28,252 bases of DNA from a virus. How positions within the stretch are numbered: the stretch's first letter is position 1; each line of letters opens with the position of its first letter. The stretch spans positions 1-28,252 of IMG/VR virus record IMGVR_UViG_3300043772_001328; one strand, 5' to 3'. Under the pieces are notes generated by a model. It saw only the letters and a list, made by a program, of their open reading frames with translations, searched no databases and was not told the origin of the DNA. The position numbers and the translations under genes were made by a program. Shown one piece after another: positions 1 to 28,252 of this stretch.

Positions 1-3000
1 CCTGCATCTTGACCGTCAAATACTGCCGCTACGCGATCCTGAATCTCTGCATCTGTCATCCATTCTGGGGCTTGAATAGTTACCTTGGCACCTTTGCCGT
101 CATCATGCGGCCTGAAAACAGCCATGGCTTGTTGCTTGTAGTGCCGCCCTAGGGCTGCCGCTGCTGCAAGCGCAGCTTTTTCGTCTGCCTTTCCAAGGTA
201 AGTGACAAAGCTTGGTTCTGGCTCACTGCCCCAAAGCCCCTGCTGCTGAACAATCTGATGGCGTTTGATGCCAAATGCTTGCGCTGCCTCTTGGCTGCGC
301 CGCGCATAGTCTCGCATGTCCCGGTTGAATGCCCATGGAGCCTTTTCAGCGCCCTTACGAGTCTTGAAAGGAGAGCCGCCAAACTCAACGCCAGTCCTTT
401 TCGGGTAGTCCTTGCGGCCCGAGTCGGGGTCTAGCGCAACCCACTCGTCACCTTGCTGCTCGATCCTGTAACGGTTGTTGTATACGTAGGTCCCGGCTTC
501 AATCTTTTCCCTGACTTGATTGGTTTCCTGTCGCTGCAGGTGCTCAGTTGCCAGTTGGTCAGCATCGCGCTTACGCACGGTCTTGCCAAGCTCGGTTCCA
601 TCAGGGGCAAACGCAACCCACATGACCTTGCCGTTCTTCTGCTTGCGCTGTGAGATGCGGTAGCCCTTGTCTTCGTAGGTGTTGCCCGCACCCTTGCGCT
701 TGCGCTTGAGCTTGCCCTTGACTACCGGCGGTTCGCCAATGGTCTCAAGGCGGTCATCGATTTCTGCAACCTTGGCCGTAACTTCAGCGTCGAAGATTTC
801 TTCTTCCCGCAACATCGACAGCTCGGCTTCGGCTGCTTGCATTTCCTCGTCAAGCTTGGTCATCCTGCGTTTTTCAGCAGCAGTGACTCCGGCCTTCTTG
901 CGCAGTTTGTCTTGCTCGTTAGCAAGCGTGGCAATCTTGGCAGCAAGTTTTTCTGCCTTGCCTTGCATACGTTGAAGCGTTGCTCGATCTGTCCCCTGTT
1001 TTCCTCTGGCTCGGGCAATAGTCCTTTGCGCCATGCTTTTGACATCGGCAATCAGCTGCTCGGTGCGCCTAAGCTGGCCCTTTTCTTTCGGGTTTGAATA
1101 AGGCACATTGATCTCATTGCCTTCTTCATCGCGCAGCTTGGGCCTGTCGCCGGGTTTTAGTTGTTGCTCGGCAGTAACAAGTAGTTCAGTAACAGCTGGG
1201 TCGGTGAACTTGCCTGCAGCCGGGTCTGGAGTTCGGTAGCCCTCTGAATCAAGCTCCTTGGCCTTGATGTCCATGGCAAGGAACTCAACTCGCAGTTCCT
1301 TGAACGCCTGTCCTTCGGGCTTAGAATCGTCCAGCAGCTCTGGCAGCTGTTTCAAAATGTCCATCTCAAGCAGCTCTGGAGCAGATGCTTCAAAAGAGGC
1401 TATCCGGTTGTCAATAAACTTGATCAGTTCAGCTTGGGTTGCTCTTAGCGGCAGACCCATTGACTGAGCACTAAGAGCAAGGTCAGCAACGGTTACCCCG
1501 ATGTAGCCCTCTTCTGCGCTTCTCATGCGTTCTTCGTCTGAGGACATCATGGTTTCGTGCAGCTCATGGCGAGCCGTTTTGAAACCCTTTTCAACTCCAA
1601 CTTGACCGAGGGCCTCAGCGTTTCGCTTATTGATCTGGTCGAGCCGTTCGATCACAGGTGACTTGGTGCCAGTGAGCTTGTTGTTGAATCTCTTGTTGAA
1701 ATCCATATATCTGGCATGGAAACCTTCAGTGAGCACTTGCAACGCCCTCTCAGACATGGTGTCCATGCGTGCCCTGAATGTGGTGATTTTGGCTCGGCTG
1801 AGCATGTCAGCTTTCCATCTATCGTAAGCTTGGGTCAAGGTAGCGCCACCAAAATCAGCAAGCTTGTTTTGCGGTTTGATTTTGTCGCCTACGGCTCGTG
1901 TTGGCACCGACACAAGCCCCCTAGTGGCGGGCCTGAGCATCCAATAGGCACCAAGCGCCGGGAGTAGGCCAAAGTCTTCTTGCGTGGCTTTGGCGATCTT
2001 GTTTACGTCCTTAGACAGGTAGACATCGCCCATTAGCAGCAGCTCGTCGGCAAACTCTTTAGCCATGGCTTGCACGGGTGCTGTGATGTAATCAATGTCA
2101 CTGCGTTCACCCGTAGCACCAATGCCAGTTATGGCTCGGTTCATAGACACGCCAAGGTTGGCAAGGATTGCGATTGGCGACGTAACCATGCTGATCAAAC
2201 CACGAGTTGTGGTTCCAAGGGTTGTTTGCGGGTCTTCGACAAAGCCCTTGACGGTTCCTCCTACTGCCGGGAAGGTATAGGGTGCGCCACCGACTGCTGC
2301 AGATAGGACTCCGGCTCGATAGACCTTTCGGGTCTTCTTGAACCATGGCTTGGCTGTGGTCTCTTGAATCTTCTTGAGGGTCTTGCCCGCGCCCTGTGCT
2401 GTGCGGCTTGTCTGGGCCGATGCCCTGACGGCTTCTTTGAGCACAGCTTCCTTAGTGATTTTGGGAGCAACGCTCAGCGCGTTGCCGACTTCATCACCAG
2501 TTTCTTTGGCTACCTTTGCGGCAATCTCGTCAGCCTGTGCAGCTGACAAACGTGTCTTGGCTGCACGCAGACCGGCAACACCACGAATGGTGCCACGGGC
2601 AAGACCGTAGACACCACCAGCTGTTAGTAGGGCGGCAAGGTAATCGCCGGGCGATGCTTCGTAGTCTTCTCCACCTAGATTGGCCGATAGCCCGGCACCA
2701 AAGGAAAAGCTGTTGAAGCCTTCGGGGGAAGAAAACCGTTTGGTTTGATCCGAAACTATCCGCTTGAATGAGTCAAGACTGATAGCAGCAGCACCAAACT
2801 CTTCGGCAAGGCCCGGTGCTTCACGAACATCCTTGTAAGCCTGTCTCTCACTGGGCAGTCGCAGCCTTCTGCCCTTTTCTTGGTTACTGGCTATCTGGGC
2901 AACTACCTTTTGACGACGCGCTTGAGCAGCGTCAAGGTTGTCGATGACATCTTCCTTACGGTTTTGAAGCTTGGTAAGCCGAGCCACCATTTTGCGGGCA

Positions 3001-14718: not shown

Positions 14719-15990
14719 TTAGGCGGTTACGCCTGCGTCGTCGTCCGTGCAGTAACGGAGCCTGCCCAGACGGTTCGGCGCGACACATGCGAGGGTTGCA
14801 TACCAACCCATCCATGCCTGCCACGTCGCTTCCTTCTGGCCAGTGCCGTCGTCCTTGAGGTGGAACACGGTGCTGTCCTGCGGGGACTCAAGGAACCCGG
14901 GACCCCACTGTTGGAACCACCTGAGAGCCGACTTGTCAATGGCGAAGACGGTGCCCTTTGGAGCATCGTCATCGATGACAACCGGGACCTCACCCGCGCC
15001 GGACGCAACCATGATGGCTGAGTATCCGCCGTGGATTTGGACTGCCTCACGGTTGGTGAACCGCTTGGTGGACTGGAAGGTGTCAGCGAGCCTGCGGCGG
15101 ATGCCACGGGTCGTAATGAACACCTCAGTGTCACCTTGTCCGGTCTGACCAACATCATCCGAAATGAGTTCGAACGAGGTCTCACCGGCAGTGGCCGATG
15201 TGCCAGATGTTCCGACATCACGAACCTGCGCGTTCCAGAACTCGTTACCTGCGGTAGCCGAGTTGATGGAGTGCAGGGTCCTGCTGGTCGAGACGATGGA
15301 CTGAAGGCCCTCCATCTCAAGCCCACGGGAACCCGCGAGGTAAACGCCATACTGGCTGGCGGTAATGCTGCCAGTCGTGATGGTCGTGTTCAGGGTGACC
15401 GTCTTAGTGGACCCGGCGAGCGCCGTGACCTCAAGCCCGGTTCCGCCGGTAACAGCAGTTCCATCGGTCTTCCTGCGGATGTCCACCGGATCACCGACAT
15501 GCAGATACTGAATCGAATCCACAGTGAGGGTGTTGGTAGCGGTCGTGATGGCGGTTCCAAAGGTAGCGAGGAGGCCGTCTCCGGTGCCAAACACCTGCCG
15601 GTTTACGTCCTTCTTCATGTCCTTTGTCGCGCCCTTGACCTCTGCGTCCAGCAGTTCCACGAATGCGCCCGAGTTGGACTGCGTGGCCTTGATGGCTGCG
15701 TCGGTCAGTTCGATCCCCTGATAGTGCCGGGTGATCGGGATGATCGCGTCGTCCCACGACTGTCTACCAGCCGAGGGGAGAACGCCGCCGTCGCCACGCG
15801 AACCACGGCCCCTGTTTCGGGACTTGTGGACCGGCACGATGGCCTTGCGTCCGTAGTGATCAACAGTGAACTCGGACTGACGCTCGATCTGGTCGATCAT
15901 GTAGGACTTGTAGTTGAGCTGTTCGACAACCGGCCCGACATACAAATCCTTCAGGATTGCGTCGGCGGTTGTCAGATTCTGGGTAGCCAA
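14719..15990 (-). CDS. Major capsid protein (HK97-like fold expected)
   Basis: A 423-aa protein. The N-terminus (TTADAILKDLYVGPVVEQLN) and the pattern of strands and loops are typical of HK97-type capsid subunits. It contains a long helix-like AFVELLDAEVKGATKDMKKD region, an ITTRGIRRRLADTFQ segment and a C-terminal WQAWMGWYATLACVAPN. It directly follows the scaffold gene, as expected. The start is TTG 15990 with AGGAG seven bases upstream. That site overlaps the scaffold stop, which couples the two. Codons end in C or G far more often than in neighbouring genes, consistent with very high expression. Confidence 0.9.
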   Translation of the reverse strand: MATQNLTTADAILKDLYVGPVVEQLNYKSYMIDQIERQSEFTVDHYGRKAIVPVHKSRNRGRGSRGDGGVLPSAGRQSWDDAIIPITRHYQGIELTDAAIKATQSNSGAFVELLDAEVKGATKDMKKDVNRQVFGTGDGLLATFGTAITTATNTLTVDSIQYLHVGDPVDIRRKTDGTAVTGGTGLEVTALAGSTKTVTLNTTITTGSITASQYGVYLAGSRGLEMEGLQSIVSTSRTLHSINSATAGNEFWNAQVRDVGTSGTSATAGETSFELISDDVGQTGQGDTEVFITTRGIRRRLADTFQSTKRFTNREAVQIHGGYSAIMVASGAGEVPVVIDDDAPKGTVFAIDKSALRWFQQWGPGFLESPQDSTVFHLKDDGTGQKEATWQAWMGWYATLACVAPNRLGRLRYCTDDDAGVTA

Positions 15991-17127: not shown

Positions 17128-17461
17128 CGTTGCCGTTGTTTTGAGCTGCTTGTGCAGCCATGGCCTGCGCGGCCTGTTGGGCTTCCTTGATTGCCCGTTC
17201 AAACTCACGCTGACCCGGAGACGGAACGTCTTCGTGCTTGGCGGCGTGGCTATACGGAGCACCAGTTCCGTCTGTGAACTTCTGCGCCTCACGTTCGCCC
17301 GGAGACTGCTGGCCAGAATCACCGTAACCGCGTAGAGATTGACCGGCCTCCTTCAGCATGTCTGCTGCGCCTTCTGGCAAGTTTCGGGGCGGGTTTTGCA
17401 TGAACGCATCAAGCGCATCAAGAAACTTAGCCGTGTGTGGATCAGGCGGCGGAACTGTCAT
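17120..17461 (-). CDS. Small protein of unknown function after the portal
   Basis: A 113-aa protein with ATG 17461 and a strong GGAGG five bases before the start. It overlaps the portal gene by 20 bases. It is Pro-rich at the N-terminus (VPPPDPHT), then charged, and ends in an Ala/Gln-rich helix (AQQAAQAMAAQAAQ). Composition resembles scaffold or portal-associated proteins. No domain is recognised. Confidence 0.72.
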   Translation of the reverse strand: MTVPPPDPHTAKFLDALDAFMQNPPRNLPEGAADMLKEAGQSLRGYGDSGQQSPGEREAQKFTDGTGAPYSHAAKHEDVPSPGQREFERAIKEAQQAAQAMAAQAAQNNGNVE

Positions 17462-19466
17462 TTTTGCCTCCGTTGTTGTTGAGTTCTGCTTCGACGGCCA
17501 TTTGTTCTTCGTTTAGCGCCACTTCACGATCTTGCGTAGCCATTTGCTCTTGCGCTGCAGTTTGCACTTGCCGCTCGATAATGCCCATCATGTAGCGCCT
17601 ATGTTCTGCGACGTGAAGGTCAAACATTGCCTTCGTGTTTTCTGGCAAGTAATGATACCTGTGCGTTTTTTGGAACTCCGTGTGTTCGGCAATGTGGAAC
17701 TCATGGTTATCGAATGAGTTGATTGGCACCACGTTGCCTTCAATGAGTTGCCGGTTTTCACGATTGACCTGTTTGGCATCTTCGGAGAACCCTTCGAATA
17801 GCCGGTCAAGCCCGCCAACCTCATAGTCCTTGAGGAACTTGCGCAGGTTGCGCTCGTCAATCGGAACGCCGTATTGAAGCATCAGAGCCAGCACTTCGGT
17901 CATTGCTGCCTGTTTAGCTGCCTTGGAGCGCGGCATTGCCGAACCCGCCTGCACATCAACTCTTGGGTTAGGCCCAAGCATTTCTCCCCTAAAAGCAAAA
18001 ATGTCCCAGTTGCCATCTTCGCCAGCGATGCGCATAATCCTTTGATCAGTGTTGTATTTGGCCCGAAGCACAAGGATTTTTGTGCCAAGATCACCAAGCG
18101 CCTGCTCCATCTGCTGGATTTCCGGGCCAAGTCGTGTTTCGTCGGCCTCTTGAAGCAGGTTGATAGCAGAAGCGGCAGTAACACCCGGAGGCACAGTTGC
18201 GCGTGATACTTCATGGATGCCCGCAATCTCCTCAATCGACTTTTCAATCCTGACAACCTCGTTTTCCACGTAAGGCGGAATCGAGGGCGGCTCAAGGTAT
18301 TGCGGGGCCGGGTCTTGCACGGTTGAGTCATATTCAATGACCTCGCCCGGGGTTCCCTCGTAACGCACGTTGGCCTGACGGCTTTTCATAATCGCCGGGT
18401 TGCCAAGCCTACGAGCGTTTTCCTTGATCTGAGTGCGGATGATGTTCAGGTCTTGCTGGGGGCCGCGAAGATCGGTAGTTACTGCATGGCTCCAAAACTT
18501 GCCCGGGACTCTGACGGAATCAAACTTGACGTAAGGCATGGGGTCAAACGGAACCTCTGAACGCAGCAGCGTGTCGTTAGCCCAAACTGCCCACCATCCT
18601 TTGGGATACTTGGACGAGGGCTTGCACCAGTATTCCTTGACCTTGACACCCCTGTAGTTGGCGGTGCCGTCTCCAAAAACCTGTCCACCTGCCGTCCATC
18701 CCTCAGACAAACCAGACGGAATGTCAGAGTCCGGCGTAGGTTCAAACGGCTCGCCAGCAGCATTTGTCGGGTAGCGGCGCTTGACGTATTCGACCGACCG
18801 AACCTTTTCTTCAACCATCCACTCGATGTCATCCATGGAGGTGGCCAACGGGTCGGGGAACATTTCAAAGACACTCATTACCTCTACGGCAATGTCGCCT
18901 TGAGCTACCTCTTCGGTCCTAACTTGCGACATAAACTCCTGATCAGCAAGCATTTCTGGCGGCAATAGCTCAATCTCGTCAGGTTTGAGGGGCGTGTCGT
19001 CTTCCGGGTTCATCAGAGGACCATCAGGCCCGGCCAGATACTGAGTCTTCTCGCCAAGGGTCTTATCCCAGAAAATCTTGAGGAACCCATTGGCACAAAT
19101 GTCTGCCCAAAGCAATGCAGCAAACAGTTTGCTTTGCAAGCGAAGCTCTACCCAGTCGTTTTCAAGCACGCGCTCTGCAACCCGGGCAGCATCAATAGCC
19201 GAATCGTCGGCTCCCTGTGGGGTTGCCGCAAACATGGGACGGTTCTTGGTCTTCCGCGACACCCGGCTTGTCACAACAGCTGTGATGCGGTTATCGGTGA
19301 CTAGCTGCCGTCGAGGATCAATCTTGGGCCGGGCAACTCGTCCTCCTGCATACATGACCCACTGAAGGCCCGAATAGAACGCACGATTGAGCATCCAATC
19401 CGGCTCATGCACAATGCGAGCCGATTTGGCTTGGTCATACTTGCGATTCAGGTCTCCAATGTCCAT
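17442..19466 (-). CDS. Portal protein
   Basis: A 674-aa protein. The length, the N-terminal EPDWMLNRAFYSGLQWVMY segment, the conserved DNRITAVVTSRVSRKTKNRP region, the acidic middle and the C-terminal Gln/Glu-rich helix are typical of large portal proteins of short-tailed phages. It forms the dodecameric DNA channel at one capsid vertex. Terminase lies upstream and scaffold/capsid downstream, the standard packaging order. The start is ATG 19466, overlapping the previous stop as TAATG. Confidence 0.88.
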   Translation of the reverse strand: MDIGDLNRKYDQAKSARIVHEPDWMLNRAFYSGLQWVMYAGGRVARPKIDPRRQLVTDNRITAVVTSRVSRKTKNRPMFAATPQGADDSAIDAARVAERVLENDWVELRLQSKLFAALLWADICANGFLKIFWDKTLGEKTQYLAGPDGPLMNPEDDTPLKPDEIELLPPEMLADQEFMSQVRTEEVAQGDIAVEVMSVFEMFPDPLATSMDDIEWMVEEKVRSVEYVKRRYPTNAAGEPFEPTPDSDIPSGLSEGWTAGGQVFGDGTANYRGVKVKEYWCKPSSKYPKGWWAVWANDTLLRSEVPFDPMPYVKFDSVRVPGKFWSHAVTTDLRGPQQDLNIIRTQIKENARRLGNPAIMKSRQANVRYEGTPGEVIEYDSTVQDPAPQYLEPPSIPPYVENEVVRIEKSIEEIAGIHEVSRATVPPGVTAASAINLLQEADETRLGPEIQQMEQALGDLGTKILVLRAKYNTDQRIMRIAGEDGNWDIFAFRGEMLGPNPRVDVQAGSAMPRSKAAKQAAMTEVLALMLQYGVPIDERNLRKFLKDYEVGGLDRLFEGFSEDAKQVNRENRQLIEGNVVPINSFDNHEFHIAEHTEFQKTHRYHYLPENTKAMFDLHVAEHRRYMMGIIERQVQTAAQEQMATQDREVALNEEQMAVEAELNNNGGKNDSSAA

Positions 19467-21124: not shown

Positions 21125-22645
21125 TTATGCGATTGGCTCGGGTGGTTTTGCAATCGCTTCATGGTGCTGCCGGGCAAGACGTTCAGTAAACGGCTCGTAG
21201 GTGTTCTGGAACTCTTCGGGGAGGTAGGGCCGGGACATAACTGCAAGGCGCGTGGCATCCATAAGGTGGTCGTGTGCCTTGACCGGCACCGGCTTGCCTT
21301 CATCTTCGCCGTGACGGGGCGGTTTCCTCCATCGGTAGGTCCGAATCTCTTTGAGAAAGTTGGTGCACTCTTCAGTGACGTAAAACCTGTCGTTCTGGAA
21401 ACGTTCTTTGACGCGGTTGATTCCTGCGGTCACAGAGTTCTGGCCCGGGATCGTGACAATGCCATGGTCGGCAAACTCCGATTGATCAGAGCGACCCGTT
21501 TGAGAGTTACGGTTACGCGCTGCCGGATCGATCACGTAATAGATAGGCTCGCAGTTGTAATGAGCGTTAGTGCGGTGAATCTCCTCACAGACTTGTTGAA
21601 TCGTCATGTCCTTGAAATAGCCCTCTTGGAACATGACCATTTTGTCGTCTGGAGTCAGGTAATACCAGCCGACTGCGCAAGCGTGCCGGATGCCCGGGTC
21701 GATAGAGACAATCACATTGACGTTCTCTGGCAGCTCATGCAACGCTGGAATGACGTGTCGTTCGCGGTCGAAATCTGGATAGATCAAGCCGGAGAGGGCG
21801 ACGAACTTACCTTGTTCGCGGGCCAGTCGCTCCTCCTTGGTGAGACCCCTGAGAGCTTCCTTTTTAGCCTCTTCGGAGAGCCACGGGTTGTCGTCCATGT
21901 GGACGATGCAAAGGCCCAGCCCGTCGTCTTCGATAACTCCTCCCTCTTTTTCAGCCAACTCCATTGCCGCTTCGAACTCGTCAAACATGTGGGTGAGTCC
22001 TTCGACGGGAGTCATGGTGAATAGCAAATCTCCTTCGCGGCGCATAACGCGCAGCCGGGCTTCCTGCAGGTGGATGCGGCCCGGTTCCTCGTCCATGTGC
22101 ACGCGGTCTAGGGTCGATCCTCCCCACTGCTGAGCTTCCTGCTGGTAGGTCTTGAACTGGTAATACGTGCCGTTCTTGAGGTGCAAGATGTGGTGCTGCT
22201 TGTCGTAGGCGCTTTTCCAGTTATCGCCAATGAGCTGATTTGGAGGTATCCACTCCTGCAGTTTTTCGAAAACGAAATCCTCGATTTCTTCGCGGCCCTG
22301 TGCCGCTATGCGGCAGCGAAACGGCGGGCGAAAACGCTTGAACTGCTTGAGGTGTTCGGGCACCATGTCAGCGTCGATGCCTTGAACAATGTCGTCAATG
22401 ATGCCGGAGGTTGTTTTGCCCGACTGGTTGCCACCGATAAAAGCTTTGCGCCGAGTCGTAAAACCATGAAACGCCATTTGCTTCAGGTGGATAGGCCCGA
22501 ACGCTGGATTGTTGTAACGCAGTAGCGGATTTGCTTTGAGGGAATCTTCTAGGTCTTTGATCGCCTTGATAGCCCTGTCCCGCTTGTGCGCAGGAAGCAG
22601 GTCAATCTTGTCTTTTGCAACTTTGACCGGTGAAGACACTCTCAC
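21125..22645 (-). CDS. Terminase large subunit
   Basis: A 506-aa DNA-packaging motor. The ATPase domain has Walker A GGNQSGKTT at about 71-79 and Walker B VHMDEEP at about 182-188, with the catalytic Glu after the Asp. The C-terminal nuclease domain has the RNase H-like acids: VSIDPG (Asp316), YVIDPAA (Asp373) and HDHLMDATR (Asp463). The length is normal for the family. The start is GTG 22645, four bases before the stop of the winged-helix gene; an in-frame GTG two codons later is also possible. It is the first clearly virion-related gene of the operon. Confidence 0.95.
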   Translation of the reverse strand: MRVSSPVKVAKDKIDLLPAHKRDRAIKAIKDLEDSLKANPLLRYNNPAFGPIHLKQMAFHGFTTRRKAFIGGNQSGKTTSGIIDDIVQGIDADMVPEHLKQFKRFRPPFRCRIAAQGREEIEDFVFEKLQEWIPPNQLIGDNWKSAYDKQHHILHLKNGTYYQFKTYQQEAQQWGGSTLDRVHMDEEPGRIHLQEARLRVMRREGDLLFTMTPVEGLTHMFDEFEAAMELAEKEGGVIEDDGLGLCIVHMDDNPWLSEEAKKEALRGLTKEERLAREQGKFVALSGLIYPDFDRERHVIPALHELPENVNVIVSIDPGIRHACAVGWYYLTPDDKMVMFQEGYFKDMTIQQVCEEIHRTNAHYNCEPIYYVIDPAARNRNSQTGRSDQSEFADHGIVTIPGQNSVTAGINRVKERFQNDRFYVTEECTNFLKEIRTYRWRKPPRHGEDEGKPVPVKAHDHLMDATRLAVMSRPYLPEEFQNTYEPFTERLARQHHEAIAKPPEPIA

Positions 22646-22648
22646 AAG

Positions 22649-22885
22649 CTACAAGATTTCCATGAGCGTAAGCTGTCTTTCGGTGATCAGCTTGTAGCGA
22701 GCATACCTACGACCGTCTGAACGAGTGAACCGCTCAGTTTCAATGTCGTAGCCCATGTCCTTGATTTCACGGATGCGTTGGGAAGGGTTGCCAGAGAATC
22801 CATTGATCCGCAGGGAGTAGGTATCTACTTCCCCTTGGTTCAGCAGCAGCTCCAGAATCCGATCCTTGTCTGATTGTCCTTTCAT
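22649..22885 (-). CDS. Small winged-helix DNA-binding protein
   Basis: A 78-aa protein starting at ATG 22885, overlapping the previous stop as ATGA. It has the winged-helix pattern: DRILELLLNQGEVDTYSL (helices 1-2), SQRIREIKDMGYDIE (recognition helix), then a wing (GRRYARYKL). Such proteins next to terminase may serve as small terminase or as regulators. Position directly before the large terminase makes a packaging role worth considering. It is a confident fold guess but an uncertain role. Confidence 0.75.
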   Translation of the reverse strand: MKGQSDKDRILELLLNQGEVDTYSLRINGFSGNPSQRIREIKDMGYDIETERFTRSDGRRYARYKLITERQLTLMEIL

Positions 22886-23310
22886 GCAGCAATCGTATCT
22901 GCCATGTCAAGGGCATCTTCTTTACGCATCTTTCTGCGCCAGTTTCTGACCGTAGTCGGGGAAACGTCAAGTTGTTCGGCAATCCTGTCTACGTGAAGGC
23001 CAGCACGCAGCAGCAAGCGGCCTTCTTCTCGCCGGGCCTTCTGTTCCTTGGGCGGAAGATGCTTTTGACCTTCATTGCGCGAGAGCTGGTTTTCTGACCA
23101 GCAGTCATCAGGTATGAGCCTGATGGCTATGTAGTGATCGGTCAAGATTCGATCTACGGCAGACGAGTAAAGATCAGCTCTTTGGCCCAATGTCCAGTCT
23201 CGCCATCTGCGCTTTTGAGATTCAGTCAGATGCAAGACGTTTACTTGCTCGACCTCAGTCAGCCATTTAGTGAACTTCGGACCATCAAGAAATCGTGGTT
23301 CTTTCCCCAT
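22882..23310 (-). CDS. Helix-turn-helix DNA-binding protein, candidate small terminase or late regulator
   Basis: A 142-aa protein. The HTH lies near the C-terminus at about 103-130 (GLHVDRIAEQLDVSPTTVRNWRRKM), followed by a short acidic tail. The first 70 residues are helical with several Trp. The frame extends upstream to 23466, but a TTGACA promoter lies inside that extension, so I chose ATG 23310, preceded by AAAGGGG. As first gene of the terminase operon, it may recognise the packaging site or regulate the operon. The HTH at the C-terminus is unusual for small terminases, so a transcription regulator is equally possible. Confidence 0.78.
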   Translation of the reverse strand: MGKEPRFLDGPKFTKWLTEVEQVNVLHLTESQKRRWRDWTLGQRADLYSSAVDRILTDHYIAIRLIPDDCWSENQLSRNEGQKHLPPKEQKARREEGRLLLRAGLHVDRIAEQLDVSPTTVRNWRRKMRKEDALDMADTIAA

Positions 23311-23335
23311 GTTTCCCCTTTGTGTTGGTGTATTG

Positions 23336-23364
23336 GGATAAACGAATCCTATAACAGGTGTCAA
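23336..23364 (-). promoter_or_regulatory. Promoter of the virion operon
   Basis: On the minus strand a perfect TTGACA (23364-23359) is followed after 16 to 18 bases by T-rich -10 candidates (TTTATC or TATCCC). The start of the first gene is 26 or more bases downstream, which leaves room for a short leader with an AAAGGGG site. The -35 box is exact; the -10 box is weak, so a phage activator may be needed. No other good promoter is visible for the minus-strand operon. Confidence 0.55.
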
Positions 23365-23699
23365 GTCTGATGCCGGGAGATGCGGGACACGCTTGAACTG
23401 GTTGGAGGCACACTGCCCCCTGTTGGGGGGACAGTTATGCGGTCCACGATGAAAGGCCATCGGCACTCGCTACCGGGGGTCAAGCGTGGCTAGGCCCAGC
23501 GTTATCACTCCCCCCGGCCTGCCTTGCTTGTGAGGGCAACTGGGGCGGGTCGGTATCTAGCGAATAGGAGGACTGGTCCCTCTAACGGACGACTACTGGT
23601 TGCTTTACGCCCCTATATACGTTAGGCTTCAACCATGATCGGGTTACTCCCAAACCCATCGTAGCACCCGCGTCAAGGGCAACAGGGCGCGGTCGTTGC
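23365..23699. other. Non-coding region between the virion operon and the tRNA unit
   Basis: No convincing gene is seen on either strand. It holds several inverted repeats: CCCCC-TGTT-GGGGG near 23416-23430, GGAC-TG-GTCC near 23570-23579, and CCGCG...CGCGG near 23668-23692. A plus-strand TTGCTT (23600-23605), 17 bases, then TAGGCT (23623-23628) could be a promoter aimed at the terminator at 23703-23745. A 37-codon plus-strand frame from 23380 has no support. Confidence 0.5.
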
Positions 23700-23745: not shown

Positions 23746-23882
23746 AGTTTGACGACTTTAGCGCCGGGCCTAGCCACCTCCAGCAGGGCCTGAGCCTCAG
23801 TAAGGCTGACCCATTTGATCTTCAGTCGAGAATCTTCCAGCACTCCCCAGCAATGCTTATAGCGGTAGCTACTCCCGGTCAA
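23700..23882 (-). CDS. Doubtful small ORF (60 codons) after the tRNA
   Basis: The frame runs from TTG 23882, which overlaps the 3' end of the tRNA, to TGA at 23700; GTG 23846 is an alternative start giving 48 aa. The middle (KIKWVSLTEAQALLEVARPGAKVVKL) looks protein-like. However, the last 15 codons are encoded by the terminator hairpin, and no good ribosome binding site is seen. It may be a real small gene or chance. Function is unknown. Confidence 0.35.
   Translation of the reverse strand: MTGSSYRYKHCWGVLEDSRLKIKWVSLTEAQALLEVARPGAKVVKLKTEAPAGGVPPEPL
23703..23745 (+). terminator. Strong rho-independent terminator, rightward
   Basis: CAGAGGCTCTGGCGG pairs fully with CCGCCGGGGCCTCTG (15 base pairs, two G-U), with an eight-base loop, followed by TTTTT. 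The U tract is on the plus strand only, so it stops rightward transcription. It protects the minus-strand tRNA unit from antisense reading, or ends a small RNA. It overlaps the end of the doubtful minus-strand ORF at 23700-23882. Confidence 0.85.
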
Positions 23883-23942
23883 GGATTCGAACCTCGATAT
23901 CTGGGACCAAAACCCAGCGTCTTGCCGTTAGACGAACCGGGA
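23872..23942 (-). tRNA. tRNA-Gln (anticodon UUG)
   Basis: A complete 71-base cloverleaf on the minus strand: acceptor arms TCCCGGT and ACCGGGA (seven pairs), D arm GTCT/AGAC, anticodon stem CTGGG/CCCAG with loop TTTTGGT (anticodon TTG, reading CAA), four-base variable loop, T arm CGAGG/CCTTG with TTCGAAT loop, and discriminator G. CCA is not encoded. It begins directly after the stop codon of the 32-aa gene, so it is probably cut from the same transcript. It may help decode CAA, which is frequent in the Gln-rich virion genes. Confidence 0.93.
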
Positions 23943-24325: not shown

Positions 24326-24708
24326 GCGACTTCGCTGTTCATAGAGGGTCGCCTGTAGGGGCTGGGTTATCTGGCCGTCTGCCGGGACTCCGGTTCGCGT
24401 GGGGGGTGTTTGGTGCGCTGGTGGAGCCTACATATAAACATCCATACACACATCACATGATCGCGCCCCCCTCCCCCCCTGCGCGTGCCTGCCTGACGGG
24501 GGGTCGGCCTGACCACCTCCCGGGGGGCCTGCCTGACCCGTCGGGATCGACCGCCTGACCAACCTGATCAGCCACCTGTCCCGAGGGCTGCTAACGCCCT
24601 ACCTGAGCACGTGGGAGAGGCCCGGATTCACGATTTTTTCAGGCCCTCTCAATCCCTGCTGTCATGCCGAAAACCCGAGGTCAAACCGAGAAACTTTGGC
24701 GGCACCAC
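24326..24708. other. Intergenic control region between the two arms
   Basis: No gene is seen on either strand; the reading frames present are short and lack start signals. An A+T-rich island (about 24429-24462) sits inside very G+C-rich DNA. Runs of C and G occur near 24465-24530. CCTGAC repeats occupy 24491-24568. An AGGCGAC...GTCGCCT inverted repeat lies near 24323-24353, and GAGAGG...CCTCTC arms flank a T6 run near 24613-24650. The arms diverge here, so promoters, operators and possibly the replication origin are expected. Confidence 0.6.
24491..24568. repeat. Cluster of GCCTGAC direct repeats
   Basis: GCCTGAC occurs at 24491-24497, 24507-24513, 24531-24537 and 24553-24559, and a variant ACCTGAT at 24562-24568. 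Spacing is 9-24 bases. The core CCTGAC word also appears in the first rightward promoter at 24722-24727. Such clusters may be iterons or regulator sites. Confidence 0.5.
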
Positions 24709-24737
24709 TTGACAGGGCTGACCTGACCTGTCATGTT
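24709..24737 (+). promoter_or_regulatory. First rightward promoter
   Basis: A perfect TTGACA (24709-24714), 17-base spacer and CATGTT (24732-24737) precede the first right-arm gene, leaving a leader of about 47 bases. It differs from the six downstream promoters, which have TAAAAT or TACAAT boxes. The inverted repeat in its spacer suggests repression. Confidence 0.72.
24710..24733. promoter_or_regulatory. Inverted repeat in the first rightward promoter, probable operator
   Basis: TGACAGG and CCTGTCA are perfect seven-base inverted arms separated by ten bases. They span from the -35 box to the start of the -10 box, so a bound dimer would block RNA polymerase. The candidate binder could be the HTH protein at 22882-23310 or an unseen repressor. 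Confidence 0.6.
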
Positions 24738-24758
24738 CCCCTGCAGACGAGGGCCGAA

Positions 24759-24771
24759 GAGGTCGGACCTC
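24759..24771. promoter_or_regulatory. Short palindrome in the first leader
   Basis: GAGGTC, one base, GACCTC is a perfect six-base inverted repeat in the leader, 20 bases before the start of the first gene. It could be a second operator or a small RNA hairpin near the ribosome binding site. Confidence 0.45.
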
Positions 24772-24790
24772 ACCACCGAAGGGACACCAC

Positions 24791-25027
24791 ATGAGCGACA
24801 TCACCACCGACATCGACACTACGTGTCACTGCATCGAGGTCTGGGCTGACCAGATCGACGCAGGGGATACCCTGATCTCCCCTCTGGATGGGGAGCGTTA
24901 CATCATCGAGGACGTTCACGTCCTGCAGGATCGCCACAGCGTCCTGCTCTGGGTCGCCTTCTCCGAAGGCCCGTGGGTGCTGGAGCTGTCGGCCGACCAT
25001 CCGGTCGAGGTCTACCGCGACTGCTGA
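24791..25027 (+). CDS. Small protein (78 aa), first gene of the right arm
   Basis: ATG 24791 has an AAGG site nine to ten bases upstream. The acidic product begins MSDITTDIDTTCHCIEVW and has the look of a small beta-barrel: DQIDAGDTLISPLDGERYIIEDV, then HSVLLWVAF and a final HPVEVYRDC. This pattern of strand, turn and strand resembles small OB- or SH3-like proteins, but no family can be named. It has its own promoter and is followed by a terminator, so it is a single-gene unit. Confidence 0.78.
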   Translation: MSDITTDIDTTCHCIEVWADQIDAGDTLISPLDGERYIIEDVHVLQDRHSVLLWVAFSEGPWVLELSADHPVEVYRDC

Positions 25028-25236: not shown

Positions 25237-25302
25237 TTGACAGGGCCGAGATCGACCAGCTAAAATGTGGGTATATGCACACACACGAGAGAGGAGCCAC
25301 CG
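25237..25302 (+). promoter_or_regulatory. Expression cassette 1: promoter, palindrome and ribosome binding leader
   Basis: TTGACA (25237-25242), 18 bases, TAAAAT (25261-25266). A near-palindrome GTGGGTATATGCACAC (25267-25282) is centred 8.5 bases after the -10 box, close to the expected RNA start. The leader then reads ACACGAGAGAGGAG before the start at 25303. It is the first of six copies and the best-matching promoter. The 155 bases before it hold no gene. Confidence 0.82.
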
Positions 25303-25407
25303 ATGAATCACGGCGACTGGTATGACCATGGCCACGAGGGCGGGGACCCGGATGACTGGGATAGCCTGCTCATTGACGACGACGAAGAGGAGCGACCACA
25401 GGGATGA
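25303..25407 (+). CDS. Tiny very acidic protein (34 aa)
   Basis: ATG 25303 follows the GAGAGGAG leader of cassette 1. The product has an N-terminal MNHGDWYDHGHEGG, then PDDWDSLLIDDDEEE and RPQG; 14 of 34 residues are Asp or Glu. The stop overlaps the next start as ATGA. Acidic mini-proteins in phages may mimic DNA or bind a host enzyme, but nothing specific is visible here. Confidence 0.72.
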   Translation: MNHGDWYDHGHEGGDPDDWDSLLIDDDEEERPQG

Positions 25408-25721
25408 CCGACACCACTGACTACGGATGCCACTGCATCACCATCGACCAGCTGCACACGATTGCAGTCAGCTACCCATCACCTGCACAGGCTGAGCACG
25501 TGCACGTAGTATCCCACCGGAGACGGCCTCCGATCAATGTTCGCACCCTATTGGGTGGCATTGAAGAGGTGGCATGGATTCACGAGGAGCTGGAGGCATG
25601 GTGGTCTCGTGAGTTCAGCGACAACGAGATTGCCCGGGGCGTGCCTGACATAGAGGCAGCGTATGCATCTAGCCTGTATGACCGCCTGCATGAGATCAGG
25701 TGCGACCAGCCCGAGATTTGA
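25404..25721 (+). CDS. Small protein of unknown function (105 aa)
   Basis: ATG 25404 overlaps the stop of the acidic protein. The N-terminus carries a CHC pair (DTTDYGCHCITIDQL) that resembles the start of the first right-arm protein (DIDTTCHCIEVWADQI), so the two may be distantly related at this end. The rest is mixed, with a Trp-rich helix (VAWIHEELEAWWSREF). Its TGA stop lies inside the -35 box of the next promoter. Confidence 0.75.
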   Translation: MTDTTDYGCHCITIDQLHTIAVSYPSPAQAEHVHVVSHRRRPPINVRTLLGGIEEVAWIHEELEAWWSREFSDNEIARGVPDIEAAYASSLYDRLHEIRCDQPEI

Positions 25722-25781
25722 CATCGACCGAGACCAGCCGATAAAATGGGTGTATATGCACACCCGTGAGAGAGGAGCACC
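25718..25781 (+). promoter_or_regulatory. Expression cassette 2
   Basis: TTGACA (25718-25723), 18 bases, TAAAAT (25742-25747). The palindrome GGGTGT-ATATGC-ACACCC (25748-25765) is centred 9.5 bases after the -10 box. The leader CGTGAGAGAGGAG precedes the start at 25782. The TGA stop of the upstream gene is part of the -35 box. Confidence 0.82.
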
Positions 25782-26084
25782 ATGCTGACCATTCACCAAG
25801 TCCAAACCGTTGCCTACCTGACCGATGGCGGGATCATCTGCCCGTCATGTGCCAGTGCCACTGACAACGGGCTGTCCAAGGAGCTTGCCAACAATGGCAG
25901 GTTCAACAATGCAGGGCTGCAAGCCCTGTCCCGCTACTCGCTGGACGAGCACAAGTATGCCGGTGCATACGAGTATGCCCATCAGGAGTGTGAGCACGAG
26001 GAGGGCAGCCCGGAGTTTGACGAGTTTGTGGAAGGCCACGCATTGGTCTGCTGCGACGGCTGCGGTCACGAGATCGACAGCTGA
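25782..26084 (+). CDS. Small probable zinc-binding protein (100 aa)
   Basis: ATG 25782 follows cassette 2. It has CPSC at residues 20-23 and CCDGC at 90-94, giving a CxxC...CxxC pair set of zinc-ribbon type separated by an acidic, His-rich middle (DEHKYAGAYEYAHQECEHEEG). A zinc site could be formed by the two ends. Proteins like this are often phage anti-host or DNA-associated factors, but no family was recognised. A hairpin follows its stop. Confidence 0.78.
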   Translation: MLTIHQVQTVAYLTDGGIICPSCASATDNGLSKELANNGRFNNAGLQALSRYSLDEHKYAGAYEYAHQECEHEEGSPEFDEFVEGHALVCCDGCGHEIDS

Positions 26085-26093
26085 AGACACCTG

Positions 26094-26118
26094 TGCCCGG
26101 GGCATAAGGCCCCGGGCA
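26094..26118 (+). terminator. Strong hairpin between two co-directional genes
   Basis: TGCCCGGGGC, loop ATAAG, GCCCCGGGCA is a perfect ten-base stem without a U tract. It lies between the stop of the zinc-ribbon-like gene and the next start at 26140, where no promoter is visible. It may be a partial terminator, an RNA processing site or a stabilising element that sets the ratio of the two products. Confidence 0.6.
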
Positions 26119-26139
26119 TCCGACCGAGAGGACACCACC

Positions 26140-26346
26140 ATGAGGCAGCTAAACAAGGCCCGTGTGATCATTTCTGCAGACGACTACCGACATGCAGTGC
26201 ATGTCCGAAACGCACTGGAAGAGGCAGGCGTGATCACACATGGGATCGCACTGGCTACGACCAGCTGCACACACGAGAAGCTGCAGCAGTTTCGACCGGA
26301 CATCCACATCAAAGTGAGGGATCGCTCCGAGTTTCTGGACCGGTAA
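26140..26346 (+). CDS. Small basic protein of unknown function (68 aa)
   Basis: The frame is open upstream to 25825, but that part overlaps the previous gene in another frame. I chose ATG 26140, which has GAGAGGA ten bases upstream. The product begins MRQLNKARVIISADDYRHA and alternates strand and helix (VRNALEEAGVITHGIAL, then DIHIKVRD), suggesting a small alpha/beta fold. Its TAA stop forms the first three bases of the next -10 box. Confidence 0.73.
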   Translation: MRQLNKARVIISADDYRHAVHVRNALEEAGVITHGIALATTSCTHEKLQQFRPDIHIKVRDRSEFLDR

Positions 26347-26386
26347 AATGGGTGTGAACGCACCCACACACGAGAGGAGCAACACC
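26344..26386 (+). promoter_or_regulatory. Expression cassette 3
   Basis: TAAAAT (26344-26349) with no good -35 box (GATCGC at the expected place). The palindrome GGGTGTG-AA-CGCACCC (26350-26365) is centred 8.5 bases after the -10 box; it is the most symmetric copy when one G-U-type mismatch is allowed. The leader CACACGAGAGGAGCAACACC leads to the start at 26387. The TAA stop of the upstream gene is part of the -10 box. The weak -35 suggests an activator or partial dependence on readthrough. Confidence 0.7.
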
Positions 26387-26713
26387 ATGTATCAGATCGA
26401 CGCTGAAAGCATCGTGACCGCCAGTGAAACTGGCAAGAGGTGGCTCGTGCAGATCGTGACCAACCACGAGCACTACACGTCCGAGCCAGTCGTAGAGTTC
26501 TACGACTTCGATCAGGACCATGCAAAGTTCGGCCCTTGTGGCCAGTTCGTGAGCAGCTACTACCTGAGCACGCTGCTTGAGCGTGACAGGTCTGGGGGTC
26601 TGGACCTAGCCGGAGACGTGAGGGGCTGGCAGCTGGATGCCCCCACCTGCACCCGAGTGACCAACTGGGTCGAGGACTGGGCCAAGTGGAACTACGTGCC
26701 GACCAGCCGGTAA
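26387..26713 (+). CDS. Small protein of unknown function (108 aa)
   Basis: ATG 26387 follows cassette 3; an in-frame start at 26348 would lie inside the cassette and is rejected. The product is alpha/beta-like: MYQIDAESIVTASETGKRW, then LVQIVTNHEH and VVEFYDFDQD strands, a YYLSTLLERD helix and a Trp-rich C-terminal helix (VTNWVEDWAKWNY). No catalytic motif is visible. Its TAA stop is again part of the next -10 box. Confidence 0.77.
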   Translation: MYQIDAESIVTASETGKRWLVQIVTNHEHYTSEPVVEFYDFDQDHAKFGPCGQFVSSYYLSTLLERDRSGGLDLAGDVRGWQLDAPTCTRVTNWVEDWAKWNYVPTSR

Positions 26714-26746
26714 AATGGGTGTGAACGCACACACGAGAGGAGCAGC
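26711..26746 (+). promoter_or_regulatory. Expression cassette 4
   Basis: TAAAAT (26711-26716) with a partial -35 (TGGAAC at 26687-26692, 18-base spacer). The palindrome GTGTG-AACG-CACAC (26719-26732) is centred 9.5 bases after the -10 box. The leader CACACGAGAGGAGCAGC ends at the start at 26747. The spacing to the start is the shortest of the six copies. Confidence 0.7.
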
Positions 26747-27040
26747 ATGACCACCACTACCGATGACGTTCGCATACAGCTGTCCGGCATCGTGGGTTTC
26801 AACCCACGGTTCACCATCACTCGCATCAACCCGGGTGGTGCCAGTGGCACCATGGGTGAGGACATGACTGTCACGTCCGTGGCTTACCAGCTCCGCGACT
26901 ATGCGGAGAATGGACAAATCACGGAGGCAGCCCGGGACCGAGCCATCTATGCACTGACGTTCACGGACATCTACTGGATCGTGCTGGAGATGGCAGACGG
27001 GTCTAAGCGTCAGATCGCACGGACGAGGAGCAACGCATGA
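26747..27040 (+). CDS. Small protein of unknown function (97 aa)
   Basis: ATG 26747 follows cassette 4. A beta-type N-terminal half (VRIQLSGIVGFNPRFTITRI) leads into a helix (VAYQLRDYAENGQITEAARD) and a final strand pair (IYWIVLEMADGSKRQIA). Its stop overlaps the next start as ATGA, so the two are co-translated. No family was recognised. Confidence 0.76.
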   Translation: MTTTTDDVRIQLSGIVGFNPRFTITRINPGGASGTMGEDMTVTSVAYQLRDYAENGQITEAARDRAIYALTFTDIYWIVLEMADGSKRQIARTRSNA

Positions 27041-27231
27041 GCGAGGAGATTCTCAACTACACGCTGACCATCAACGTCCCGATTCGCACGTTCACCTACA
27101 CGGGTCTGAACATGGACGAGGTTGTAGAGATTGCCAACGAGTTTGGCATCTATGTCCCCTACGACATGCTGCCCACTGAACCGGGCACGAGCGTGGGAGA
27201 CATCGACTGGCAGGTTGAAGTCCCGGCCTGA
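27037..27231 (+). CDS. Small protein (64 aa), possible paralogue of the gene at 27695
   Basis: ATG 27037 overlaps the previous stop as ATGA. The product starts with strands (LNYTLTINV, FTYTGLNMDE), then a helix with VVEIANEFGIYVPYD, and ends TEPGTSVGDIDWQVEVPA. The arrangement Glu-Ile...Phe-Gly...Leu-Pro...Glu-Pro-Gly...Trp matches the 76-aa gene at 27695-27925 in order and spacing. Function is unknown. Confidence 0.74.
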   Translation: MSEEILNYTLTINVPIRTFTYTGLNMDEVVEIANEFGIYVPYDMLPTEPGTSVGDIDWQVEVPA

Positions 27232-27282
27232 CCGCTGATAAAATGTGGGTGTAGTGCCCACACACACGAGAGGAGCAACACC
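27215..27282 (+). promoter_or_regulatory. Expression cassette 5
   Basis: TTGAAG (27215-27220), 18 bases, TAAAAT (27239-27244). The palindrome TGTGGG-TGTAGTG-CCCACA (27244-27262) is centred nine bases after the -10 box. The leader CACACGAGAGGAGCAACACC leads to the start at 27283. The -35 box lies inside the end of the upstream gene. Confidence 0.78.
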
Positions 27283-27636
27283 ATGAGCGACACCACCATC
27301 AACACTGACGAGATCAAGGCACTCGTCACCACCGCACTGACAACCGCACTGGCACCCGTGGTCGAGACGATCACGACAGCCGTGGTCGAGCAGGTCAAGG
27401 ACCTCACCCGTCCCGAGCTGCCCGAGGGCGTTGAGTCCCTGCTGGGGCAGGCACTGGAAAGTGTGTCTGCAGCCGAGGACGAGATCGGAACCCTGAAGTC
27501 CGTCATCGAGGACTGGGAGTATAAGGCCAGCCAGCTGGAGAGTGACATCGACAGCTACACTGCCAGCGATGCCGAGGGTTCCATCGAGGAGGCCCGGGCC
27601 AAGGTGGCTGAGGTGGCCGAGCAGTTCGGCCTCTAG
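27283..27636 (+). CDS. Acidic helical protein (117 aa)
   Basis: ATG 27283 follows cassette 5. The product is acidic and nearly all helix: ALVTTALTTALAPVVETI, VVEQVKDLTRPELPEG, then a coiled-coil-like AAEDEIGTLKSVIEDWEYKA and ARAKVAEVAEQFGL. Such a composition suits a coiled-coil oligomer or a scaffold-like accessory protein. No family was recognised. Confidence 0.77.
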   Translation: MSDTTINTDEIKALVTTALTTALAPVVETITTAVVEQVKDLTRPELPEGVESLLGQALESVSAAEDEIGTLKSVIEDWEYKASQLESDIDSYTASDAEGSIEEARAKVAEVAEQFGL

Positions 27637-27643
27637 GTGTCAG

Positions 27644-27669
27644 GCCCCGGGGCGATCAGGCCCCGGGGC
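27644..27669 (+). terminator. Perfect GC hairpin between two co-directional genes
   Basis: GCCCCGGGGC, loop GATCAG, GCCCCGGGGC makes a perfect ten-base stem; each arm is also a palindrome, so it can fold or pair in two ways. No U tract follows. It separates the acidic helical gene from the gene at 27695, which has no visible promoter of its own, just as the hairpin at 26094 does. Confidence 0.6.
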
Positions 27670-27694
27670 ATCACCATCACACGAAAGGCAACAC

Positions 27695-27925
27695 ATGAGC
27701 GGTTACACACTGATCGTAGACACACAGGGAGCACAGGCCATCGGCGGTCACGTCTGGTGGCATGACCTGCACGAGCTAGAGGTCATCGAGATCATGGCAT
27801 CGTTCGGAGTTGGGCTGCTGCCCACGGACCTGCCTGAACCCGGGGAGGTCTGGGCCGGAGGACCGCCCGGTTTGTGGTGGGAGATTCACGGCCCGAAAAT
27901 CGACGCTGATACAATAGGTGTGTAA
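27695..27925 (+). CDS. Small protein (76 aa), possible paralogue of the gene at 27037
   Basis: ATG 27695 has AAAGG eight bases upstream; the open frame further up runs through the previous gene and the hairpin and is rejected. The product has MSGYTLIVDTQGAQAIGG, then HELEVIEIMASFGVGLLP, DLPEPGEVW and LWWEIHGPKI. The central helix and the Leu-Pro...Glu-Pro-Gly...Trp pattern match the gene at 27037. Its end overlaps cassette 6, and its TAA stop lies in the centre of that palindrome. Confidence 0.74.
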   Translation: MSGYTLIVDTQGAQAIGGHVWWHDLHELEVIEIMASFGVGLLPTDLPEPGEVWAGGPPGLWWEIHGPKIDADTIGV

Positions 27926-27952
27926 CGCACCACACACGAGAGGAGATTCACC
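27910..27952 (+). promoter_or_regulatory. Expression cassette 6
   Basis: TACAAT (27910-27915) with a partial -35 (TTCACG at 27885-27890, 19-base spacer). The palindrome GGTGTG-TAA-CGCACC (27917-27931) is centred nine bases after the -10 box. The leader CACACGAGAGGAGATTCACC leads to the start at 27953. The promoter lies within the coding region of the previous gene. Confidence 0.7.
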
Positions 27953-28252
27953 ATGCTGACCTACCACGAAGCAACCGATCTCATGGAGACGGCCCGCGAT
28001 GCAGACAAGGGTAAGCCCCTTGCAAACAACACCCGTCTCTATTTCAGGGACGGCGACTACAGTTCCCCTGCCTTCGACGTGGTGTTGCACGAGACGGCCA
28101 TCGTGACCATCGACATGGAGCACGGCCCCGCTGCCTACACGATCAGGACCGGGGGCTGGAACACGGTCACCACACGTGAACGGCTCAACCGCTACGCACC
28201 GGGCCATTTCTTCACCAAGGAGGGCGTGCTTTACGTCCGGGCATTTGTCCAT
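27953..28252 (+). CDS. Small protein of unknown function, partial (100 codons to the right edge)
   Basis: ATG 27953 follows cassette 6 and the frame is open to the end of the window. The product starts MLTYHEATDLMETARDADKG, then KPLANNTRLYFRDGDY, a VVLHETAIVTIDMEHG strand pair, YTIRTGGWNTVTTRERLNRY, and FFTKEGVLYVRAFVH. The Lys-Pro-Leu-x-Asn-Asn-Thr-Arg-Leu and Gly-Gly-Trp-x-Thr-Val-Thr-Thr motifs resemble, from memory, a family of unknown function in phages of actinobacteria. That recollection supports the host guess but should be checked. The C-terminus is missing. Confidence 0.8.
   Translation, partial: MLTYHEATDLMETARDADKGKPLANNTRLYFRDGDYSSPAFDVVLHETAIVTIDMEHGPAAYTIRTGGWNTVTTRERLNRYAPGHFFTKEGVLYVRAFVH

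Follow-up and report, generated by a model that had tools for sequence, protein, structure and literature searches.

The window analyzed here, a linear virus record of the IMG/VR type with a length of 28,252 bp (IMGVR_UViG_3300043772_001328), carries near its right end six near-copies of a start region 40-70 bp long, each of which precedes a different small gene (Table 1). These cassettes share a common plan consisting of a TAAAAT or TACAAT box, an imperfect dyad GKGKGT-N4/5-GCMCMC, a leader resembling CACACGAGAGGAG, and an ATG codon 4-7 nt past GGAG; in copy 6, the two arms of the dyad read AGGTGT and GCACCA instead of GKGKGT and GCMCMC. The set of cassettes is genuine and compact. The most attractive reading, which we hold with slightly less than even confidence, is that the cassettes are early promoters carrying an operator at the start site, while a G/T-rich discriminator followed by a C/A-rich leader without any operator constitutes a serious alternative.

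When the window was searched for the leader CACACACGAGAGGAG with up to 3 mismatches, seven matches were found vs. 0.9 expected, and none of 100 shuffles reached this number. All the matches are on the plus strand between positions 25280 and 27945, and 4/7 are exact; two of them overlap in copy 1, and one (26268) lies within an open reading frame (ORF) and is not part of a cassette. The six leaders announced in an earlier note on this DNA are all present in the window; the coordinates given for them mix two landmarks, since 25237, 25718, and 27215 are the positions of -35 hexamers (TTGACA, TTGACA, and TTGAAG, respectively) and 26344, 26711, and 27910 those of -10 boxes.

Table 1. Coordinates of the start cassettes, the small ORFs of the array, and other features of the window
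Feature	Position	Strand	-35 region	-10 box	Dyad	Leader	ATG	Remarks
Cassette 1	25237-25305	+	TTGACA 25237-25242	TAAAAT 25261-25266	GTGGGTATATGCACACAC 25267-25284	CACACGAGAGAGGAG 25282-25296	25303	weak dyad
Cassette 2	25718-25784	+	TTGACA 25718-25723	TAAAAT 25742-25747	GGGTGTATATGCACACCC 25748-25765	GTGAGAGAGGAG 25766-25777	25782	6-bp arms
Cassette 3	26344-26389	+	no match	TAAAAT 26344-26349	GGGTGTGAACGCACCC 26350-26365	CACACACGAGAGGAG 26365-26379	26387	
Cassette 4	26711-26749	+	no match	TAAAAT 26711-26716	GGGTGTGAACGCACAC 26717-26732	26728-26742	26747	imperfect dyad
Cassette 5	27215-27285	+	TTGAAG 27215-27220	TAAAAT 27239-27244	GTGGGTGTAGTGCCCAC 27245-27261	27261-27275	27283	TGA before box (extended -10)
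Cassette 6	27910-27955	+		TACAAT 27910-27915	GGTGTGTAACGCACC 27917-27931	27931-27945	27953	TGA before box (extended -10)
Small ORF	25303-25407	+						34 aa, first after cassette 1
Small ORF	25404-25721	+						105 aa, second after cassette 1
Small ORF	25782-26084	+						
Small ORF	26140-26346	+						
Small ORF	26387-26713	+						
Small ORF	26747-27040	+						
Small ORF	27037-27231	+						
Small ORF	27283-27636	+						
Small ORF	27695-27925	+						
Small ORF	27953-28252	+						cut by contig end
GC-rich hairpin	26096-26116	+						CCCGGGGC..GCCCCGGG, after ORF 25782-26084, no T-run
GC-rich hairpin, second copy	27647-27667	+						after ORF 27283-27636, no T-run
Major head protein	14719-15990	-						
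Portal	17442-19466	-						
Terminase	21125-22645	-						
tRNA-Gln	23872-23942							

Promoters and Dyads of the Cassettes

In copies 1 and 2, TTGACA and TAAAAT are separated by 18 bp and form a full sigma-70-type promoter, and copy 5 carries a partial one, with TTGAAG 18 bp upstream of the box. A -35 hexamer with 6/6 matches at a permitted spacing occurs at only 0.14% of the window positions. The best -35 matches amount to 2/6 in copy 3, 3/6 in copy 4, and 4/6 in copy 6 (at a spacing of 19 bp). In all six copies, the sixth base after the box is a T and the seventh a purine, which is the usual -1/+1 pattern, and the RNA start is therefore predicted to lie within the dyad loop, the center of the dyad being located at about +2.5 to +3.5. 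The proximity of the palindrome center to the RNA start, which had been put forward previously, is thus borne out at the predicted start.

As claimed in the earlier note, the dyad centers are located 8.5-9.5 nt past the end of the -10 box in the six copies. The dyad scores obtained at centers 8-10 were 3.5, 6, 5, 5, 5, and 4.5 in copies 1-6, respectively, and these scores are reached at 9.2, 0.6, 2.2, 2.2, 2.2, and 2.7% of the window positions; multiplying these fractions gives 1.5e-10, which is not a valid probability and overstates the significance in view of the homology of the copies. The arms are perfect over 5-6 bp in copies 2, 3, and 5. The residues G3, G5, and T6 and the G, C, and C of the right arm are invariant, which means that the sequence is as well conserved as the position and does not agree with the idea that position is conserved more tightly than sequence. 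Dyads were not generally enriched at the cassette position among 147 sigma-70-like promoters, which were taken from terminase relatives and other fetched loci.

The right halves of the dyads were exchanged among the copies in an arm-swap test. Total symmetry was equal or better in 232/720 of the arrangements with a free center and in 36/720 with a fixed stem, the latter result being borderline. Since right-arm swaps preserve the symmetry to this extent, most of it can be attributed to the consensus that the copies share, and compensatory change is slight at best (copy 5 differs from copy 3 on both sides at two pairs); the suggestion that the arms vary while their pairing is kept was not supported, the test being negative or marginal. 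As regards RNA folding, the values predicted ranged from 0 to -4.2 kcal/mol for RNA starting at +1 and from -3.4 to -10.8 kcal/mol for RNA including the left arm; the dyad hairpin would therefore be formed only in read-through RNA. In line with the preference expressed in the earlier note for a DNA operator over an RNA hairpin, RNA initiated within the cassettes would not carry the hairpin.

Occurrence of the Cassette in Other Genomes

No second array was found in the scans of IMG/VR, phage, plasmid, and genome-contig collections. Viral contigs yielded no match with TAAAATNNGTGTNNNNGCACNNACAC and none with the leader combined with the dyad, and a BLAST search with one cassette against phages and plasmids gave nothing convincing. 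Two patterns gave matches that were judged to be due to chance: TAAAAT with GGTGTG..CGCAC (33 viral loci, all in lower-GC contigs (0.34-0.43) without the leader) and TAAAAT with TATATGCACAC (24 viral loci, mostly in AT-rich contigs without the leader). The genome-contig scan gave a single match, which is located in a coding sequence. The fragments close to the window are L005, L006, and L007, with a terminase identity of 84-86%, and L021, with 76%. In the search for the leader in these fragments, ACACGAGAGGAG with up to 1 mismatch was not found in the records of L021, L005, and L007, and the position weight matrix (PWM) of the cassette gave nothing above 14 in L005, L006, L007, and L021, L006 and L007 including little of the arm equivalent to that carrying the cassettes. 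Conservation of the array in related phages is not supported by the close relatives and collections scanned.

The leader combined with TANAAT was present at nine loci in the viral contigs, four of which are relevant, the others having different spacers. Three phage contigs (L011, L012, and L015) carry TACAAT-GAGC-CACACACACGAGAGGAG, that is, the same box and leader with no left arm, and the left arm is therefore an extra which is dispensable for the promoter plus leader. The fourth, L013 (IMG/VR phage contig IMGVR_UViG_3300032322_000399), contains a single TAGAAT-AGGGGT-ACGA-GCACACGAGAGGAG-CCACCG-ATG. This version (TAGAATAGGGGTACGAGCACACGAGAGGAG) scores 23.8 with the PWM, vs. 24.3-31.5 in the case of the six cassettes, and is non-palindromic. 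L013 resembles the window in the type of box, the discriminator consensus, and the leader; it differs in having one copy and no dyad at the start, with a CTAA..TTAG dyad directly upstream of its -10 box (detected by eye). Since they occur in all four of these contigs, the box and leader are a wider phage module, and it is the start-site dyad that distinguishes the window array. In L013 (7300-7760, minus strand), two promoters carry CTAA..TTAG-type dyads at or beside the -10 box, one of them with the leader of the array, and a CTAACC..GGTTAG dyad lies inside a nearby TTGACA promoter. It looks as if the type and place of the operator change while the leader stays.

Favored Explanation and Alternatives

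If the cassettes are early promoters with a start-site operator, each of these promoters, equipped with its own ribosome-binding leader, would enable several small accessory genes, which probably serve in host takeover, to be expressed independently of their position in an operon. Host RNA polymerase would start at the purine 7 nt past the box, so that the dyad (about -6 to +10) would straddle the start site. The dyad might then be an operator common to the six units: a single dimeric DNA-binding protein, of phage or host origin, may block open-complex formation there and could thereby switch them all off together. The CA-rich 5' leader would remain unstructured and load ribosomes. Copies 3, 4, and 6 are expected to be weaker promoters since they have no good -35. 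The TAA stop codon of the upstream ORF provides the first bases of the -10 box in copies 3 and 4 and lies within the dyad loop in copy 6; with several promoters on or beside the stop codons of preceding genes, the units are packed with almost no spacer.

Several points weigh against this explanation. A convincing -35 is missing from copies 3, 4, and 6. The palindrome is poor in copies 1 and 4: the former has 3-bp arms with a mismatch, and the latter has 5-bp arms only if the CACAC of the leader is counted in. There is no clear covariation of the arms between copies, and no related array was found with which to assess conservation. Since L013 fits the consensus without being a palindrome, the cassette sequence may be kept for a reason other than symmetry. 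No single regulator of the kind proposed in the earlier note was identified for the cassette dyads: two helix-turn-helix (HTH) proteins (22649-22885 and 22882-23466), which adjoin the terminase, are the only candidates in the window, and the HTH region beside the terminase, as read by eye, is also present in relatives devoid of the cassette. We regard as somewhat doubtful the more tentative proposal of a previously undescribed regulon, in which a start-site-centered operator would be combined with promoter and leader in a single portable unit copied before successive unrelated genes, all under one regulator. Support for the idea that the cassettes travel together with new genes is no more than indirect, coming from the lack of paralogy among the genes.

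A serious rival, though less likely than the operator reading, is that the cassettes are simply promoters followed by an unstructured leader, without any operator. In that case, a discriminator composed only of G and T, with T(-1) as its last base, would make up the left arm, the start of a C/A-rich 5' leader would make up the right one, and the facing of G/T by A/C would yield an apparent palindrome. The near-interchangeability of the right arms in the arm-swap test is consistent with this explanation, as is the fact that copies 1 and 4 and L013 retain the sequence with little symmetry; CA-rich leaders also occur without a dyad in L011, L012, and L015, and the leaders of mycobacteriophage Adephagia (AACAACGCACACGGGATAGGAG) are CA-rich too. 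The perfect arms of copies 2, 3, and 5, the borderline result with the fixed stem, and the two pairs at which copy 5 has changed on both sides relative to copy 3 argue against it.

Less probable still is an RNA hairpin in read-through transcripts from upstream promoters, which would lie just before the ribosome-binding site and either tune translation or serve as an RNA-processing site, while the box would also serve as an AU-rich linker and provide a stop codon in copies 3 and 4. The folding energies of RNA containing the left arm fit this possibility, all the units are co-directional, three copies lack a -35, and the invariant T6-G pair closing the loop could be tolerated as U-G in RNA. Against it stand the loss of the left arm from transcripts initiated at the cassettes' own promoters, the exact 18-bp spacing of TTGACA from the box in two copies, and the unconvincing covariation. 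A terminator of leftward (antisense) transcription, in which the dyad is followed on the minus strand by ATTTTA, is very improbable: 2/6 copies (25765-25748 and 27937-27918) were listed as terminator-like on the minus strand in a scan, but the other four were not, there are at most 4 consecutive T residues, and the element is located exactly between the -10 box and the ribosome-binding site.

Comparison with Mycobacteriophage Systems

In cluster K mycobacteriophages (Adephagia, Anaya, TM4, and Pixie), scattered non-structural genes are preceded by start-associated sequences (SAS) and extended SAS (ESAS): the former is the 13-bp GGGATAGGAGCCC, located 3-9 bp before start codons, and the latter consists of imperfect inverted repeats (15-17 bp) over the -35 and -10 of a SigA-like promoter (PMC3203893, PMC11373665, PMC12699233). 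In Adephagia, a longer dyad lies over the promoters, and repressor binding has been suggested (PMC11373665). Like these systems, the window, which is also that of an actinobacterial phage, contains multiple intergenic copies of an element in which a promoter and an inverted repeat are combined with a leader that stays constant, directly before start codons, and the elements precede unrelated non-structural genes; in both cases, the leader is CA-rich and followed by a Shine-Dalgarno sequence. The dispersed copies characteristic of cluster K have their counterpart in the six copies preceding non-paralogous small ORFs, in line with the earlier statement that the cassettes drive small genes. Judged by consensus, copies 1 and 2 have a SigA-like promoter and copy 5 has part of one, and copies 3, 4, and 6 have none.

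The arms of ESAS reach a length of 17 bp, with a center upstream of the -10 end, whereas those of the window measure 3-6 bp, with a center 8.5-9.5 bp downstream, over the start. In 6/7 of the Adephagia elements measured, the center precedes the -10 end by 8.5-9 bp and the arms cover the -35 and -10; in the seventh (gene 92), our script missed the promoter inside the element. Neither strand of the window contains the SAS 13-mer, even when 2 mismatches are allowed, and the best match of the Adephagia right half to the window dyad has 4 mismatches. Since two defining features are lacking, namely the 13-mer and the location of the dyad over the -35 and -10, the window array, judging from the sequences compared, resembles ESAS/SAS in design and is not a member of this family; the analogy drawn previously, with different words, was an apt one. 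If the operator reading is correct, a design of the cluster K type (promoter, dyad, and constant leader before scattered accessory genes) would have arisen in an unrelated actinobacterial podovirus with another placement of the dyad. The array would then provide a compact, testable promoter set for studying the timing of small takeover genes in phages, and would also help in asking how new genes come under existing control.

The stoperators of cluster A mycobacteriophages (L5) are 13-bp asymmetric repressor sites that are not tied to start codons, unlike the cassettes, which they resemble in that many dispersed copies of a short phage DNA site play a role in transcription. Cluster A (L5) stoperators are mentioned in PMC3203893.

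Genes of the Array and Genomic Context

The codon-position GC of the array ORFs is typical of genes, and no relatedness was detectable among them. No confident family was found in PHROGs for the nine of the ten ORFs scanned or in Pfam for the seven tested, the tenth, ORF 27953-28252, giving only a sub-threshold match in Pfam, and no relatives of ORF 25782-26084 were found in IMG/VR or phages. CcrSwift and CcrRogue are among the Caulobacter phages with early genes that match the product of ORF 27953-28252 (42-45% identity over about 55 aa); in several records, the annotation places these genes in the terminal repeats. The GC-rich hairpin at 26096-26116 is a possible terminator inside the array.

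Arthrobacter phage Jasmine and Microbacterium phage Shocker are among the phages whose portal and terminase show a distant relationship (24-30% identity) to those of the window, which is therefore most likely a fragment of a podovirus infecting an actinobacterium. The minus strand also encodes a tail fiber and further virion genes. The plus-strand arm of small genes, which follows the divergent region on its right side and is truncated at 28252 by the contig end, carries the cassettes and corresponds to the early arm. The first early genes of L007 (1-600, minus strand) and the window (24706-24793) have a common TTGACAGGGCTG promoter start and a GGTCGGACC element; L007 shows a different dyad arrangement, with GTGCACATGCAC beside its -10 region and a leader containing a GGTCCG..CGGACC hairpin. 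In the right, early arm of L021 (locus 1-2400, minus strand of the locus), one strand contains 10 copies of ATGGACA vs. 0.28 expected, preceded by AGA or AGG in 10/10 cases and apparently in different reading frames; the motif is absent from this strand elsewhere in the locus. A structured RNA matching Rfam EGFOA (RF02955) is located upstream of the late operon at an equivalent position in the window (23472-23566, minus strand), L007 (1438-1528, plus strand), L005 (3442-3536, plus strand), and L006 (772-866, plus strand); the score of 41.4 bits in L007 exceeds the gathering score (37.7), and those in the window, L005, and L006 are 35.0-35.7.

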